A DNA stretch of 38,273 nt, taken from Promineifilum sp. (lineage in GTDB: Bacteria > Chloroflexota > Anaerolineae > Promineifilales > Promineifilaceae). Shown in pieces: positions 19,452 to 26,968 of this stretch. The first letter of the stretch is position 1; each line of letters begins with the position of its first letter. The DNA lies in NCBI GenBank assembly GCA_018058545.1, contig JAGOZU010000024.1, forward strand, positions 1 through 38,273, read 5' to 3'. The translations under genes and the position numbers were made by a program. Below the pieces are notes generated by a model that was not told the DNA's origin, ran no database searches, and saw only the letters and a program-made list of their open reading frames with translations.

Positions 19452-19611
19452 GATTACTCGCAACTCGGTATTGGCGAGGAAGAGATTAGCCAATAACGTC
19501 CGCTTTGGCTACTGATTGTGCCGAGAGTGATGGAGCCATTGCCAAGCCGGCAGCTTGCTGAGGAGGTTCCGGCAGCGCATTGGCCGCGCGATCCTTGCCG
19601 GAGGGGTTATA

Positions 19612-20046
19612 ATGATTGATATGAGTGATGAACTACCCGACGGCGCGATCCGGATCGTGGAACACACGGCCGATTGGGCGTTGCTGGTGCGCGGCCGCGA
19701 TCTGGCCGAACTGTTTCGTCACGCGGCCATCGGCCTGGCGCGCCTGTTGGCGGGCGACCTCGCGGCCGTGCCCCGAGACATGCAACGCGAGATACAACTT
19801 GAGGCCTACGACGCCGAAGGGTTGCTGGTCGAGTGGCTCGGCGAACTGGCCTATTGGGCCGAGCGGGAAGGGCTTGCCTTTCCCCTGATCGAACATCTGG
19901 AGGTAGCGCCCGACAGGCTCACAGGGCGAGTGCGCGGCGGCCGCGCTCCCGAACTGCAGAAACATATCAAGGCCGTGACCTACCATGATCTGGCAATCCG
20001 CGAGCAGGACGGTAAACTCGAAGTGACCATTGTGTTCGATGTCTGA
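19612..20046 (+). CDS. Archease, RtcB-activating protein
   Basis: Archease helps the RNA ligase RtcB to be guanylated and to turn over. The 144-residue protein has the family layout: [19 protein letters not shown] near the N-terminus with the metal-binding Asp, [12 protein letters not shown] in the middle, and the C-terminal [10 protein letters not shown] followed by VTIVFDV. The ATG at 19612 is favoured because GGAGGGG lies seven bases upstream. The frame is open further back, to 19555, but without a site. An ATG at 19621 is an alternative. The rtcB gene starts 29 bases downstream, a common archease-rtcB pairing that strongly supports the call. Confidence 0.92.
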
Positions 20047-20075: not shown

Positions 20076-21524
<1,449 letters not shown>

Positions 21525-21539: not shown

Positions 21540-22658
21540 ATGTCCGCAAGCAAACCCGCTCCGAAATCCGCACTTGACCGGATCATCCGCCTATCGTCCG
21601 GGCTGCGGCGGCCGCCATCGAACGTTTCGCCGCAGAAAATCCTCATCATGCAGCCATGCTGCCTGGGCCAGGTGATGCAGACCACTCCCCTGCTGGCCGC
21701 GCTGAGCGAAGGGTTCCCGGAGGCGCGCATCGACTGGGCGGTCAGCGATTGGGCCATGCCAGCCATCGGCGTCAACCCACGCCTCACCCGCATTATCCAC
21801 ACCGGCGCGGGCAGCCCCGACAATTGCAGTCGGGAAGAGCTTCGTGCCCTCATTGACAAACTCCGCGCCGGAGGATATGACGCCTGCTTCGTCCCCTCCC
21901 AATCGAACAAGACGAAACAGGCGGCCCTTCAGGCGGATATTCCACGGGTCTTCGGGTTTAACGGCGGCCGCAAAATGAAAGAGCCGGCCACCATCGAACG
22001 ACTCACGGCTCGTCGCTTTCTGTCCCTTGCCACTGCCGCCGGGGTCGATCCATCGATCATCGACAGCGTGGAGATGGAATTCGAGCCACCGGACGTCGAT
22101 CGGGCCAAAATCGCTCGCCGGTTGGTGGAGGAGCTTGACTGGCTGGGCAACACGCCGCTGGTCATACTGCATCCGGGTGGGGGCGATAACCCTGACCGGA
22201 TGGCTCTCGACAAGCGTTGGCCTGCCCAGCGGTTTGCCCGTCTGGCGAACCACCTGACGCGAACCTATGGCGCGCATGTGATTGTAGCCGGCACGGCCGA
22301 GGAGCGAGCGGTGGCCGAACAGGTCGTGGGCATGATCGCCTTTCCGGTTACCAATCTGGCCGGACAATTAGGCTTGGGCGAGTTGGGAGCGTTATGCGAA
22401 CTGGCCGATCTCTATGTGGGCAACGACGCCGGTTCGACCTGCGTCGCCGCGGCCACCGGCTGCCCGACATTGGCGATCTACGGCCCCACCGATCCGGCCG
22501 TCTACGGCCCCTACATGGTCAACGGCCGCGTCCGGACGTTATGGAAGCCCTATGAGGGAGCGTTCAACTGGGCCGCCGGGGTATCTGTGGCCGAGGCGTG
22601 CGCGGCGGCCGACAAACTGATGACCGAACCGGCGCGATTGGCAACTACGATCGCTTAA
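21540..22658 (+). CDS. Family 9 glycosyltransferase (heptosyltransferase-like)
   Basis: A 372-residue GT9 protein of the ADP-heptose:LPS heptosyltransferase type. It has KILIMQPCCLGQVMQTTPLLAAL near the start, VILHPGGG in the middle, DKRWPAQRFARLANHL, and the donor-site segment LYVGNDAGSTCVAAATGCPTLAIYGPTDP near residue 290. It lacks a transmembrane segment and would work at the inner face of the membrane. GT9 enzymes also occur in bacteria without classical LPS, where they decorate other envelope glycans. It starts 15 bases after rtcB, but the functional link to RNA repair is unclear. Its stop codon overlaps that of the convergent translin-like gene. Confidence 0.87.
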   Translation: MSASKPAPKSALDRIIRLSSGLRRPPSNVSPQKILIMQPCCLGQVMQTTPLLAALSEGFPEARIDWAVSDWAMPAIGVNPRLTRIIHTGAGSPDNCSREELRALIDKLRAGGYDACFVPSQSNKTKQAALQADIPRVFGFNGGRKMKEPATIERLTARRFLSLATAAGVDPSIIDSVEMEFEPPDVDRAKIARRLVEELDWLGNTPLVILHPGGGDNPDRMALDKRWPAQRFARLANHLTRTYGAHVIVAGTAEERAVAEQVVGMIAFPVTNLAGQLGLGELGALCELADLYVGNDAGSTCVAAATGCPTLAIYGPTDPAVYGPYMVNGRVRTLWKPYEGAFNWAAGVSVAEACAAADKLMTEPARLATTIA

Positions 22659-23299
22659 GGCTTGTCGCCCTCGGCCAGCTTCCCCTCCAGGGATTTCAGC
22701 GCCGCTTCCAGTTGCGCGCTGCGATAGCTGTTGGCAAGATCGCCGTTGGTCCGCTCGAAAACCGCCCGCAGCGCATCCGTCCGGCGGCGCAACCCCCCGG
22801 TGATCTGATCGGCAAAGTCAAAAGTTACCAGCGTGCTATAGATGAGGTCCATGGCGTCCAACAGGCGCTCGGCTTCGGGCATCTGCCCCTTGCGCATCAG
22901 GTCGAGGATGCGGCGGCGCAGTTCGCTGGCAGCCTCGGCCAGCCCGTTCAACCACGTGTTAGGCTCCGACCCCAATTCTTCCGGCGGGGGCAGCGGCCGA
23001 TTGCGAACCAGCGCATAGACGAGATTGGCCTCGACGAACTCCTTCACCGCATCCTGGGTATAACCGGCGAAGTAAAGCTCCGCGTAATTGCGCACGCCCC
23101 CGACGAGGTCTTCGGTGGCCTGGCGCGCCTCGGCCAGCAACGATTCGGCCGCCGGCCACTCCTCGCGGTGTATGGCGCGAATAGATCGGGCGCACAGCGC
23201 GATGAGGCTGCGCGACCGCTGATAGGCCAGGTCACGCGCGCCGTCGACCTGTTCCATGTAGCGTCGAATCGTTTCGGCCGTAACCTCAAGTTCGTCCAT
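22655..23299 (-). CDS. Translin family protein
   Basis: About 214 residues, predicted to be almost entirely alpha-helical, with the translin pattern. It has RSIRAIHREEWPAAESLLAEA near the N-terminus, YAELYFAGYTQDAVKEFVEA, then GLAEAASELRRRILDLMRKG, AERLLDAMDLIYSTLVTFD and a C-terminal helix ending with Glu-Arg-Thr-Asn-Gly-Asp-Leu. Translins are octameric nucleic-acid-binding proteins. Archaeal and eukaryotic members are linked to RNA binding and cleavage. The start could be the ATG at 23299 or at 23311, and both overlap the end of the DUF3467 gene, so translation is coupled. The frame extends to 23443 but that part is antisense-like and out of character. The role in bacteria is not established. 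The gene closes a sugar-uptake operon. Confidence 0.78.
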   Translation of the reverse strand: MDELEVTAETIRRYMEQVDGARDLAYQRSRSLIALCARSIRAIHREEWPAAESLLAEARQATEDLVGGVRNYAELYFAGYTQDAVKEFVEANLVYALVRNRPLPPPEELGSEPNTWLNGLAEAASELRRRILDLMRKGQMPEAERLLDAMDLIYSTLVTFDFADQITGGLRRRTDALRAVFERTNGDLANSYRSAQLEAALKSLEGKLAEGDKP

Positions 23300-23651
23300 C
23301 GCCCTTCTCATCGTCGGATTCGCTCTCGCCACTCTCTCCTGAAAAACGGAAGAAGTTATCGGCCAGGTTGGGGCGCGGGTGCGGCAGGCGAATCTCGCCG
23401 AACTGATTCTCAAAGTTGGCCAGGTTTTGGCCCAGAGCCGCATGCAGCAGCTTGGCGTGGATAGGACTCATAATGATCCGCGCCGCGACGGCTCCGCGGG
23501 GGGTGCGCGGCAGCACCTGGGCGAAGTCGACCACGATCTCGGCCGGCGTGTAGTTGATGAACGCCAGGTTGGCGTAGATCGGTTTCAGATCTTTGGGCAG
23601 GTCGATGGTGATGCGAGTCTGTTTGGGTTGTTCGTGTGTATTTTCAGTCAT
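23286..23651 (-). CDS. DUF3467 domain protein
   Basis: A 121-residue cytoplasmic protein matching DUF3467 throughout. It has DLKPIYANLAFINYTPAEIVVDFAQVLPRTP in the first half, then ARIIMSPIHAKLLHAALGQNLANFENQFGEI. The tail is acidic and probably disordered (ESGESESDDEKGDG). The start at 23651 has a CAGGGA ribosome-binding site. The gene overlaps the downstream translin start and lies 34 bases after the MalG-like permease gene. The biochemical function is unknown. Its tight coupling to translin suggests the two products act together, possibly on RNA, but this is inference. Confidence 0.82.
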   Translation of the reverse strand: MTENTHEQPKQTRITIDLPKDLKPIYANLAFINYTPAEIVVDFAQVLPRTPRGAVAARIIMSPIHAKLLHAALGQNLANFENQFGEIRLPHPRPNLADNFFRFSGESGESESDDEKGDGRT

Positions 23652-23684: not shown

Positions 23685-24539
23685 TTAGCCCTTCACGGAG
23701 CCGGCCAGCAGTCCGCGAATGAAGTAGCGGCCCATGACGATGTAGACGATTAGCGTCGGAATGGCGGCGATGATAGCCCCGGCCATGATCATGTTCCATT
23801 CCTGAATCTGGCTTCCCGACAGGTTACGCAAGGCTACCGTGATAGGCTGCGATTCCGGCTTCTGCAGCGTGGTCACCGCAAAGAGAAATTCGTTCCAGAT
23901 ATTGGTGAATTGCCAGATGATGACGACCACGAATCCCGGCAGCGACAGGGGAAACAGGATATGACGATAGATCCCGAAGAACCCCGCGCCGTCGATGCGC
24001 GAAGCCTCGATCATTTCGTTGGGCACTTCGGAGTAGTAGTTGCGGAAGATAAGCGTCGTGATCGGGATTCCATAGACGACATGGATCAGCACCAGGCCCG
24101 CCAAGGTACCGCCTATTCCGATTCGCGACAGGGTGATCGTCAGCGGCACAAGGACAGATTGATAGGGAATGAACATGCCGAACAGCATCAGCGGGAAGAT
24201 GATATTGGAGCCGGGGAATTTCCACTTCGACAGCACATAGCCGTTCATCGACCCGAGCATGGCCGACAGGATCGTCGCCGGGATGGTCAGCTTGAAGCTG
24301 TTCATCAGATTGGGGCCCAGGCCGCGCAATCCTTTCGCGGGGATACCCGACCAGGCCGCGCGAAAACTCTCCAGATTGATCCCCTGAGGCAGGCTCCACA
24401 TTCGTGACAGGTCCTGCACCTCGGCAAAGGTCTTGAAACTGCTGCTCAACAAGACATAGACCGGGATCATGAAGATCAGGGCGAAAAGGACCAGCAATAG
24501 ATAGACGGCAAAACGAGCGGGATTAAAGCGCATGGTCAT
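23685..24539 (-). CDS. Carbohydrate ABC transporter permease, MalG type
   Basis: A 284-residue inner-membrane permease with six predicted helices. The cytoplasmic EAA loop, [20 protein letters not shown] near residue 180, docks the ATPase. It matches the second permease of the CUT1 family of oligosaccharide importers. Its start overlaps the stop of the MalF-like gene by four bases (24536-24539), so the two subunits are made together. The ATPase is not encoded nearby and is probably a shared MsiK/UgpC-type protein. Genomic context points to amino-sugar oligosaccharides as the substrate. Confidence 0.94.
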
Positions 24540-25474
24540 ATCTCGGTCTCCTGGCGGAAGCTGTAGATGAGGTAGGGGACGATGACAAACGCGACCATGA
24601 TGAGCATGATGACGGAGATCGCGGCTCCCTGGGAGTAATGGTTACCCTGGAAGGTCGTCTCGAACATGAAGATGCCGGGCACATCGGTGGCGAAGGCCGG
24701 GCCTTTGCCGGTCATGGTATAGATGAGGTCGAATATTTTGAGGGAGATGTGACCCAGGATGATGAGGGCGCTGAAGGTGATCGGCCGCAACAAGGGCATG
24801 ATGATCAGCCGGTACACCTGAAAATTGGTGGCCCCATCAACCCGGCCGGCCTCGCGCAACTCATCGGGTATGGCTCGCAAGCCGGCCAGATACATGGCCA
24901 TGGTATAGCCGGTCATCTGCCAGGCGGCGGCGATAATGACCGGGATAAGGGCGATATGGAACGGCCCGATGCTGGTCGGATCGGTATACCAGCCCCACTT
25001 CAGATTCTCCAGACCAAAGGTTCCCAAGAGCGCGTTGACGCCTCTCGGCCGCGACGCCGTGCCGGGAGCAAAGATCCACTGCCAGACGACGCCGGTGACG
25101 ACGAAGGAGATGGCCATCGGAAACAGATAGATGGTGCGGAAGATCCCCTCACCCTTCACCTTTTGGTCGAGAAGAATGGCCAGCAGGAGACCTACGCCCA
25201 CGCATATCAGCAGGAAGAAGATGGTGAAGAACAGCGTGTTCCACAGGCCTGTGTTGAAACGAATGGCCGAAATGCCGCCAATCTCTTTGGAAAAGAGAGC
25301 CTTGTAATTCGCCAGACCCACAAAGGTGTAATCCGGCGCGATTCCATCCCATTTTGAAACGGAGACAAGCCCTGTCCAGGCGATAAATCCATAGACAAAG
25401 ATAGCGATGAGAATGATGGACGGCAGAAGCATCAGAAAGGCGATCCAGCGCTCATGGCGCGTCTGGGAATCCAT
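24536..25474 (-). CDS. Carbohydrate ABC transporter permease, MalF/UgpA type
   Basis: A 312-residue membrane protein with six helices. A first helix at about 12-35 ([20 protein letters not shown]) is followed by a periplasm-side loop. The EAA motif, [20 protein letters not shown], is near residue 215. It pairs with the MalG-type permease that overlaps its 3' end. The ATG at 25474 follows a GAGGTG ribosome-binding site. A terminator stem-loop lies between this gene and the substrate-binding protein gene upstream, so permeases should be made at a lower level than the binding protein. Confidence 0.94.
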
Positions 25475-25556
25475 ATTGTCACCTCGCAGCTAATATTGGA
25501 CGGCAATGGGGAACATGCTGAATGGTATCACGAAACTAATAATTGCATAACATATT

Positions 25557-25590
25557 AAAAAGAGCGCCGCCGGATTGCTCGCGGCGGCGC
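25557..25590 (-). terminator. Rho-independent terminator or attenuating stem-loop after the first binding-protein gene
   Basis: GCGCCGCCG (25564-25572) and CGGCGGCGC (25582-25590) form a perfect nine-pair GC stem with a nine-base loop. Read on the minus strand the stem is followed by CTCTTTTTAATA, giving a five-T run. It begins 19 bases after the stop codon of the binding-protein gene. Partial read-through would set the high binding-protein to permease ratio common in such operons. Confidence 0.85.
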
Positions 25591-25609
25591 CCTTCTCACC
25601 TGTCAGCGT

Positions 25610-26968
25610 TTACTTGCAAACGCCGGCGGCAACACATGCCTGCGCCATGGCTGCTTGCGCGGTTTCGACATTGCGGTCGGTGACGAACAGGGTCATCACG
25701 TCATTGAACGCCGTCACCCAGCCTTCCGACGCGGCCGCGCCGTGGGCCAGACTCGGGGTGATCTCGTTGGTGGCGAAAGCGTCCATCGCCGACTGCAGAT
25801 ACGCATTGTACAACGAACGATCGCTGTCGCTGCGCGGCGAGATGGAACCCTTGACCGGGTTGAACGCATCCTGCCCTTCCTTTGAGCCGGACAGGGTCAG
25901 CCACTTGATGGCGTTGTCACGATGTGGCGCGCCCTTCGGCAGGCCGAATGTGTCGGACAGCATCATGAAGGTGCCGTCGGTCCCCGGCGAGGGAGCATAG
26001 CCGTAATCTACACCCGGCTCCAGGTCGAACGAGAAGAAGTAGCCGTCGGCCCAGTCGCCCATGATGGTCATGGCGGCGTCGCCGTCGACGACCAACTGAG
26101 CAGCCTGGTCCCAGGACAGGGCGGCGTGGTCCTCATTGACGTAGTCGAGCATGCGGGCGAACGTGTTGAGAGCCTCGGTGACTTCCGGGCCGTTCCAGTC
26201 CGTTTCCCCGGTCCAAAGGCCGCGATAGCCGTCGGGGCCGAGCGCGCCCAGCAGGACCGACTCGAACAGATGGGTGGAAGCCCAGATGGCGTTATCGCCC
26301 AGAGCCAGAGGCGTGACGCCCGCGGCTTTCAGGGTATCGGCCGCGGCGAAGAACTCCTCAAAGCTCGTCGGAGCGCTGATGCCGTTGGCCTCGAAGACGG
26401 CGGGGTTGTACCACATGACATTGGAACGGTGGATGTTGACCGGCACGCTCCAGATCTCGCCATTGTAGGAGAGGATATCGATCACGCCCTGGGGATAGAC
26501 ATCATACCAGCCGTTCTCCTCGAAGAGGAAAGTGACCGGCTCCATCTTGTCGGCCACGACCCAGGTGTCGATCAGCTCGTGACCGGCATGAACCTGGAAC
26601 GAGTCGGGCGGGTCGCCGGCCTGCATGCGCGTGGCCAGCACGGCCTTGGCGTTGGAGCCGGCGCCACCGGCCACAGTGGCATTGACGATCTCGACATCGG
26701 GGTATTGGGCGCGGAAGACTTCAAACATGGCATTGAGGCCATCCGCCTCGCCACCGGCCGTCCACCAGCTGAAGAACTCAAGCTGATTGGCTCCGCCGGC
26801 CGCGGGCGCTTCCGCCGCCGGTTCTGTGGCTGCAGGTACCTCTGCGGCTCCCTCCGCCGGGGCCTCTTCGGCCGGGGCGGATGGCGCGGCCGCGCCGCCG
26901 CCGCAAGCGGCCAGCGCCAGGGCAAAGATCAACAGCAACGAAATTAACAAAAGGAACTTCCTTGACAT
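25610..26968 (-). CDS. Sugar ABC transporter substrate-binding lipoprotein (SBP1)
   Basis: A 452-residue extracytoplasmic solute-binding protein of the CUT1 group. It has a lipoprotein signal peptide (about 1-20) ending in the lipobox LAAC, then a low-complexity Gly/Ala/Pro/Glu tether to about residue 60. The binding domain has LEFFSWWTAGGEADGLNAMF and later SMITIMGDWADGYFF-like and FGLPKGAPH segments typical of this family. The ATG at 26968 follows TAGGAG. It lies upstream of the MalF/MalG permeases, separated by a terminator. A perfect 9-bp inverted repeat sits 25-48 bases before the start codon. The substrate is probably a GlcNAc-containing saccharide, judging by the cluster. Confidence 0.93.
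   Translation of the reverse strand: MSRKFLLLISLLLIFALALAACGGGAAAPSAPAEEAPAEGAAEVPAATEPAAEAPAAGGANQLEFFSWWTAGGEADGLNAMFEVFRAQYPDVEIVNATVAGGAGSNAKAVLATRMQAGDPPDSFQVHAGHELIDTWVVADKMEPVTFLFEENGWYDVYPQGVIDILSYNGEIWSVPVNIHRSNVMWYNPAVFEANGISAPTSFEEFFAAADTLKAAGVTPLALGDNAIWASTHLFESVLLGALGPDGYRGLWTGETDWNGPEVTEALNTFARMLDYVNEDHAALSWDQAAQLVVDGDAAMTIMGDWADGYFFSFDLEPGVDYGYAPSPGTDGTFMMLSDTFGLPKGAPHRDNAIKWLTLSGSKEGQDAFNPVKGSISPRSDSDRSLYNAYLQSAMDAFATNEITPSLAHGAAASEGWVTAFNDVMTLFVTDRNVETAQAAMAQACVAAGVCK

Follow-up and report, generated by a model that had tools for sequence, protein, structure and literature searches.

An overlapping DUF3467-translin gene pair conserved within one class of Chloroflexota

Introduction

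C3PO is known mainly from eukaryotic RNA interference and tRNA processing. The eukaryotic complex clears away the 5' fragments of pre-tRNAs and breaks down nicked passenger RNA, and its catalysis takes place in the TRAX subunit (PMC3834833). In archaea, the Trax protein of Nanoarchaeum degrades RNA as a single protein (PMC9051087), and archaeal TRAX genes have been described next to, or in operons with, those for SepRS and endonuclease V (PMC5424206, PMC8762117). Bacterial members of the family were already surveyed by Gupta, Kale and Kumar in 2012, a work represented here by its citations in PMC3834833 and PMC5424206. The window analysed in this study, i.e., the whole stretch of 38,273 bp from Promineifilum sp., carries a translin-family gene that overlaps a DUF3467 gene, and the question that it raises is whether these two products work together on RNA. 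The pair is real, conserved and restricted to its class, and it brings together a known kind of RNase and an undescribed genetic partner; a dedicated RNA machine formed by translin and DUF3467 is possible.

The Overlapping Gene Pair

As the initial annotation had proposed, both genes are on the minus strand and overlap. The DUF3467 gene (23286-23651, -) codes for 121 residues that match PF11950 with an E-value of 3e-19 (69.3 bits, above the gathering cut-off of 25), and the gene of the translin/TRAX (C3PO) family (22655-23299, -) codes for 214 residues. The overlap comprises 14 bp (23286-23299, -), so that the translin ATG is located within the 3' end of DUF3467. The translin-family reading frame is open from 23443 and runs across DUF3467 in a different frame; nevertheless, translation is likely to start at the ATG at 23299 (MDELEV...), which has gagaaggg just before it and gives the product of 214 residues. 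This choice agrees with a relative (L183) in which the same MDEL start is found in the middle of the open reading frame. Relatives often have a 4-bp overlap at this junction (e.g., L153, L146 and L122), and the ends of the two genes overlap, or nearly so, across at least seven families of the class. From its sequence, this arrangement probably couples the translation of DUF3467 and translin.

The Translin-Family Protein

The claim that the second gene encodes a bacterial translin stood up well. NCBIfam PRK14562.1-5 matches the protein with an E-value of 2e-71 and 239.8 bits, and five sister models match it too. This score is below the PRK14562 equivalog cut-off of 291, and an E-value of 1e-3 was not attained with the Pfam profile PF01997; the same holds for most Chloroflexota translins. 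In a phmmer comparison the window protein matched AfTRAX (3zc1) with an E-value of 6e-20. Its AlphaFold model (pLDDT 94.5) presents the all-helical translin fold, and Foldseek superimposed it on AfC3PO (3zc1) over the full length with a TM of 0.92 and an rmsd of 1.5. It is thus well supported that the window protein is a bona fide bacterial relative of translin/TRAX, the human RNA-cutting pair. In NCBIfam, the translin homologues of PRK14562 (COG2178) go under the name of "haloacid dehalogenase superfamily protein"; since the fold and sequence of the PRK14562 protein are TRAX-like, many bacterial translins are probably misnamed.

The DUF3467 Protein

In the literature searched, DUF3467 was named only in a Porphyromonas proteome, as a protein of unknown function. 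An AlphaFold model based on 46 sequences shows a confident β-β-β-α core (residues 24-87) followed by a loose tail of low confidence. Foldseek with this model gave no significant match in the PDB or viral libraries. A second structural comparison (VIA) placed the COMM, PC4, PUR and MRP domains at low Z values of 2-4; all of these are small sheet-plus-helix domains that recur among the fold neighbours of DUF3467. Structure comparison and motif resemblance prompted the idea that DUF3467 is a member of the PC4 or PUR families; hhalign with small profiles gave this idea no support, its probabilities of 1.6% against PUR and 0.2% against PC4 being non-significant. Judging from the model, DUF3467 could plausibly be a dimeric module that binds nucleic acids or proteins.

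In a Bacteroidota genome (L263:1602-3581, -), DUF3467 forms the N-terminal part of a fusion with a hybrid histidine kinase (kinase-receiver), an arrangement suggestive of a module of general use in binding or dimerisation. Histidine kinases are neighbours of DUF3467 at the Parabacteroides loci (L102) as well, and of the ssb-DUF3467-translin operons in family f2.

Conservation of the Pair in Chloroflexota

In an even sample of 251 Chloroflexota genomes, translin was found in 139 and DUF3467 in 44. The genes were considered adjacent when DUF3467 was directly upstream of translin on the same strand, with the hits less than 300 bp apart. In the class of the window, 22 of the 30 sampled translin-bearing genomes have the adjacent pair and six have translin without DUF3467. 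Of the 56 genomes of the order, 51 have both genes, adjacent in 37 and on different contigs in the other 14, at least four of which have them at contig ends. Translin is present in all 51 assemblies of the order that have DUF3467, a figure that says little, translin being nearly universal there. No adjacency was seen in genomes outside the class that have both genes, where these are apart. Across the phylum the two genes are associated with an odds ratio of 6.6 (p 3e-6), a value that ignores kinship and is not relied on. The co-occurrence of the two genes stands as a recurrent adjacency within the class and lacks support beyond it, as illustrated by Bacteroidota, where 118 of 148 genomes have DUF3467 and none has translin; these phyletic data give no support to a dedicated DUF3467-translin RNA module across bacteria.

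The pair is kept in families f1, f2, f5, f9, f11, f12 and f75 while its flanks vary, i.e., ssb, archease-RtcB, a sugar operon and others. Its commonest context in the class is an ssb-DUF3467-translin operon, found in families f2, f5 and f75 as well as in named contigs of Anaerolineales, Thermoflexales and Ardenticatenia; in families f9, f11 and f12 the pair is in other contexts. A linkage of bacterial translins to DUF3467 or ssb was not found in the literature searched. In family f2 (L039-L067), the operon is followed on its 3' side by a conserved membrane protein of approx. 206 residues, and also by a protein of approx. 138 residues that resembles nucleoside 2-deoxyribosyltransferase.

At several translin hits, extended open frames could suggest fusions with DUF3467; these were judged likely to be chance in GC-rich genomes, and no fusion was found in the loci examined, some of which were not read through. 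A viral or plasmid origin of the pair was likewise set aside, as no relatives were found in viral contigs and no translin was found on plasmids.

Proposed Function of the Pair

The gene pair, its coupling and conservation, and the RNase family, fold and predicted catalytic acids of translin are supported. The best reading of these features, which we hold tentatively, is that a C3PO-type RNase is translationally coupled to DUF3467 as a small and probably dimeric adaptor. The cassette would yield a homo-oligomeric, metal-dependent endoribonuclease of the TRAX/C3PO type, and DUF3467, probably as a dimer, would act beside it as an adaptor that binds nucleic acids or proteins and that may recruit, restrain or stabilise the RNase by contacting it. 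The cassette is behind ssb in most of the Anaerolineae that have the pair; it would have moved beside archease-RtcB in the family of the window, and in the species of the window it is additionally placed behind a sugar operon. Its likely job would be to trim or clear structured or single-stranded RNA, e.g., tRNA fragments. The RNA degradation by the single Nanoarchaeum protein, together with the archaeal operons of TRAX with SepRS and endonuclease V, makes tRNA-related RNA the first substrate candidate. The ssb-DUF3467-translin operon and the family-level link to archease-RtcB point to partners and substrates that could be tested for a C3PO of bacteria.

DUF3467 Beyond Translin

The distribution of DUF3467 bears on a second reading, nearly as credible as the first, according to which the two genes are co-regulated with separate functions; DUF3467 would be a small, general housekeeping factor for nucleic acids and the TRAX-like RNase a second one, the two having a common transcript that goes back to an ancestral ssb operon and making no contact. 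This reading is favoured, and the adaptor reading weakened, by the wide occurrence of DUF3467 without translin. In the Bacteroidota genomes mentioned above it sits between rpoC and rpsL (rpsL-rpsG-fusA), and translin is also absent from seven DUF3467 genomes outside Chloroflexota (Kapaibacteria, Calditrichota, KSB1, Edwardsbacteria and UBP2) and from two Bacteroidota. In other Chloroflexota, DUF3467 is found 5' of a coiled-coil protein and RNase HI, 5' of RadC, or 3' of ruvB-upp, the names being assigned by sequence recognition. Thus, DUF3467 is recurrently near nucleic-acid genes (ssb, rpoC/rpsL, RNase HI and radC), which speaks for the adaptor reading, and its occurrence without translin indicates a general companion of such genes and not a translin-specific subunit. 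About 80% of the sampled Bacteroidota carry DUF3467, which lies there between rpoC and rpsL as an unstudied neighbour of core nucleic-acid genes.

Within Chloroflexota, the members of the ssb operon also occur apart: ssb precedes DUF3467 with no adjacent translin in three loci (L069, L157 and L167), and in another (L062) it is directly ahead of an orphan translin with no DUF3467; the pair is moreover split in several genera. For one of these loci (G306/L157), translin is absent from an assembly whose completeness is not known. Against separate functions, the pair stays joined, and often overlapping, after it has parted from ssb and acquired other flanks. Translin was also the closest correlate of DUF3467 in a weak distance-correlation test (Spearman 0.62, partial 0.34), which carries no conclusion because too few genomes (n=16) were available.

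Some individual loci deserve mention. In family f29 (L246, L247 and L248), where no translin was seen, DUF3467 is followed by the coiled-coil protein and RNase HI, and in family f20 (L251, L252 and L259) it overlaps or abuts radC. Bacteroides and Parabacteroides records labelled as plasmids (L099 and L102) contain rpoC, rpsL and fusA, and resemble mislabelled chromosome fragments.

The Archease-RtcB Neighborhood

That archease and RtcB share the segment with the pair had been pointed out in the initial annotation, and they are indeed 1.2-3.7 kb away, on the opposite strand, with a proximity that is conserved in the family of the window. The archease gene (19555-20046, +) was identified by sequence recognition and by homologues beside rtcB in relatives; its open reading frame begins with TTG, and the true start is probably further in. 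The RtcB RNA ligase gene (20076-21524, +) is supported by PF01139 (E 3e-177) and by synteny. Between RtcB and translin there is a glycosyltransferase-9-like gene (21540-22658, +), named by sequence recognition, a conserved neighbour whose tail overlaps that of translin by 4 bp.

This neighbourhood suggests an RNA cut-and-repair module in which translin, DUF3467 and archease-RtcB would share their target RNAs and cleaved tRNAs would be resealed or sorted by RtcB, a proposal that we consider unlikely. In its favour, of the 26 family genomes with RtcB of the window type, 23 have it no more than approx. 4 kb from the pair, and archaeal TRAX has tRNA-linked neighbours too; the three exceptions correspond to two contig breaks and one assembly without the pair. 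The orientation is divergent in 17 of these genomes, covering most other genera of the family, and convergent in six, as in the window. On the other hand, the linkage belongs to one family, and was not seen in loci elsewhere in the class or phylum. It is also part of a longer conserved block that holds glycosyltransferase, ComEA-like and membrane genes, some of them apparently unrelated: among 18 genera, the background synteny was 15 for the ComEA-like gene, 14 for the glycosyltransferase, 13 for RtcB, 12 for archease and 12 for two further genes. The linkage is neither kept beyond one lineage nor more specific than this background, which ruled it out as decisive functional evidence and leaves it as weak evidence for joint function. 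Furthermore, the ends left by carboxylate-metal RNases are usually 3'-OH and 5'-phosphate, which RtcB cannot join. A broader version has equally little probability in our estimation; it envisages a bacterial C3PO in which a homo-oligomeric RNase of the TRAX type has DUF3467 as its dedicated partner, both encoded in the ssb operon of Anaerolineae, and which would direct RNAs that are damaged or processed either to decay or to sealing by RtcB/archease.

Those genera of the family that lack the archease-linked RtcB (G251-G258, G277-G279 and others) have a different type of RtcB elsewhere; in several of these the DUF3467-translin pair is split.

Predicted Catalytic Residues of the Window Translin

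The predicted catalytic carboxylates of the window translin are E87, E90, E122 and E126; when the protein is aligned with AfTrax and NEQ131, the TRAX positions are taken by the acidic residues of its KEFVEA and GLAEAASELRR segments. The TRAX acids are E, E, D and E, and the window protein has four carboxylates with Glu instead of Asp in the third place, a position whose archaeal Asp is replaced by Ala in the crystal of AfTrax with RNA (3zc0). All 77 aligned Chloroflexota translins have the four carboxylates and all 77 have Glu at the third; therefore, this substitution is ancient and does not depend on DUF3467. The window translin is likely a TRAX-type, Mg-dependent RNase. If this Glu impaired catalysis, translin could instead be a scaffold that binds RNA or DNA with no nuclease activity, in the manner of the eukaryotic translin subunits, which bind nucleic acid while catalysis sits in TRAX (PMC3834833). 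This is improbable, as the presence of the four carboxylates in every aligned sequence fits a retained metal chemistry.

The Sugar Operon

Upstream of the pair there is a sugar ABC operon (23685-26968, -), with open reading frames for a solute-binding protein (25610-26968, -) and two permeases (24536-25474 and 23685-24539, both -). The end of the last permease (23685) and the start of DUF3467 (23651) are separated by 33 bp on the same strand, and no terminator-like site was found between them; the placement of the pair at the end of a sugar operon was thus borne out for this genome. Sugar genes are upstream of the pair in just three sampled genomes of the genus (the window, L186 and L188) and are absent at the other pair loci examined, for which reason the operon is regarded as an incidental local accident, and a role in sugar uptake for the pair, as the last genes of that operon, is very improbable in spite of the close spacing.

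Comparison with Known Systems

The small β-sheet and helix layout of DUF3467 is shared, in low-Z alignments, with the PC4, PUR, MRP and COMM domains; however, sequence comparison lends no support and the fold match is not significant. The Bacteroidota DUF3467 proteins (PF11950) have the same domain as that of the window, with about 35-40% identity, but they lack the C-terminal LADxLF segment that is present in the Anaerolineae clade, and their genomes have no translin.

The PRK14562 proteins of Chloroflexota belong to the same family as the window translin. AfC3PO/AfTrax (3zc0, 3zc1) and NEQ131 (5jr9, 5jrc) resemble it in the fold of the whole chain and in motifs of the QELVEA and GELRR type, and both the archaeal proteins and the window translin are likely single-gene oligomeric RNases. 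In contrast with archaeal TRAX, the third acid is Glu and the gene is coupled to DUF3467; the neighbours differ as well, these being ssb or archease-RtcB for translins of the window type, and SepRS and endonuclease V for archaeal TRAX (PMC5424206, PMC8762117), whose neighbourhoods are taken here from published contexts. With the eukaryotic translin-TRAX complex (C3PO), the window translin shares the superfamily and four carboxylates at the TRAX-type catalytic positions, the third being Glu; nevertheless, it is encoded by one gene with no RNAi context, whereas eukaryotic C3PO is a hetero-octamer of translin and TRAX.
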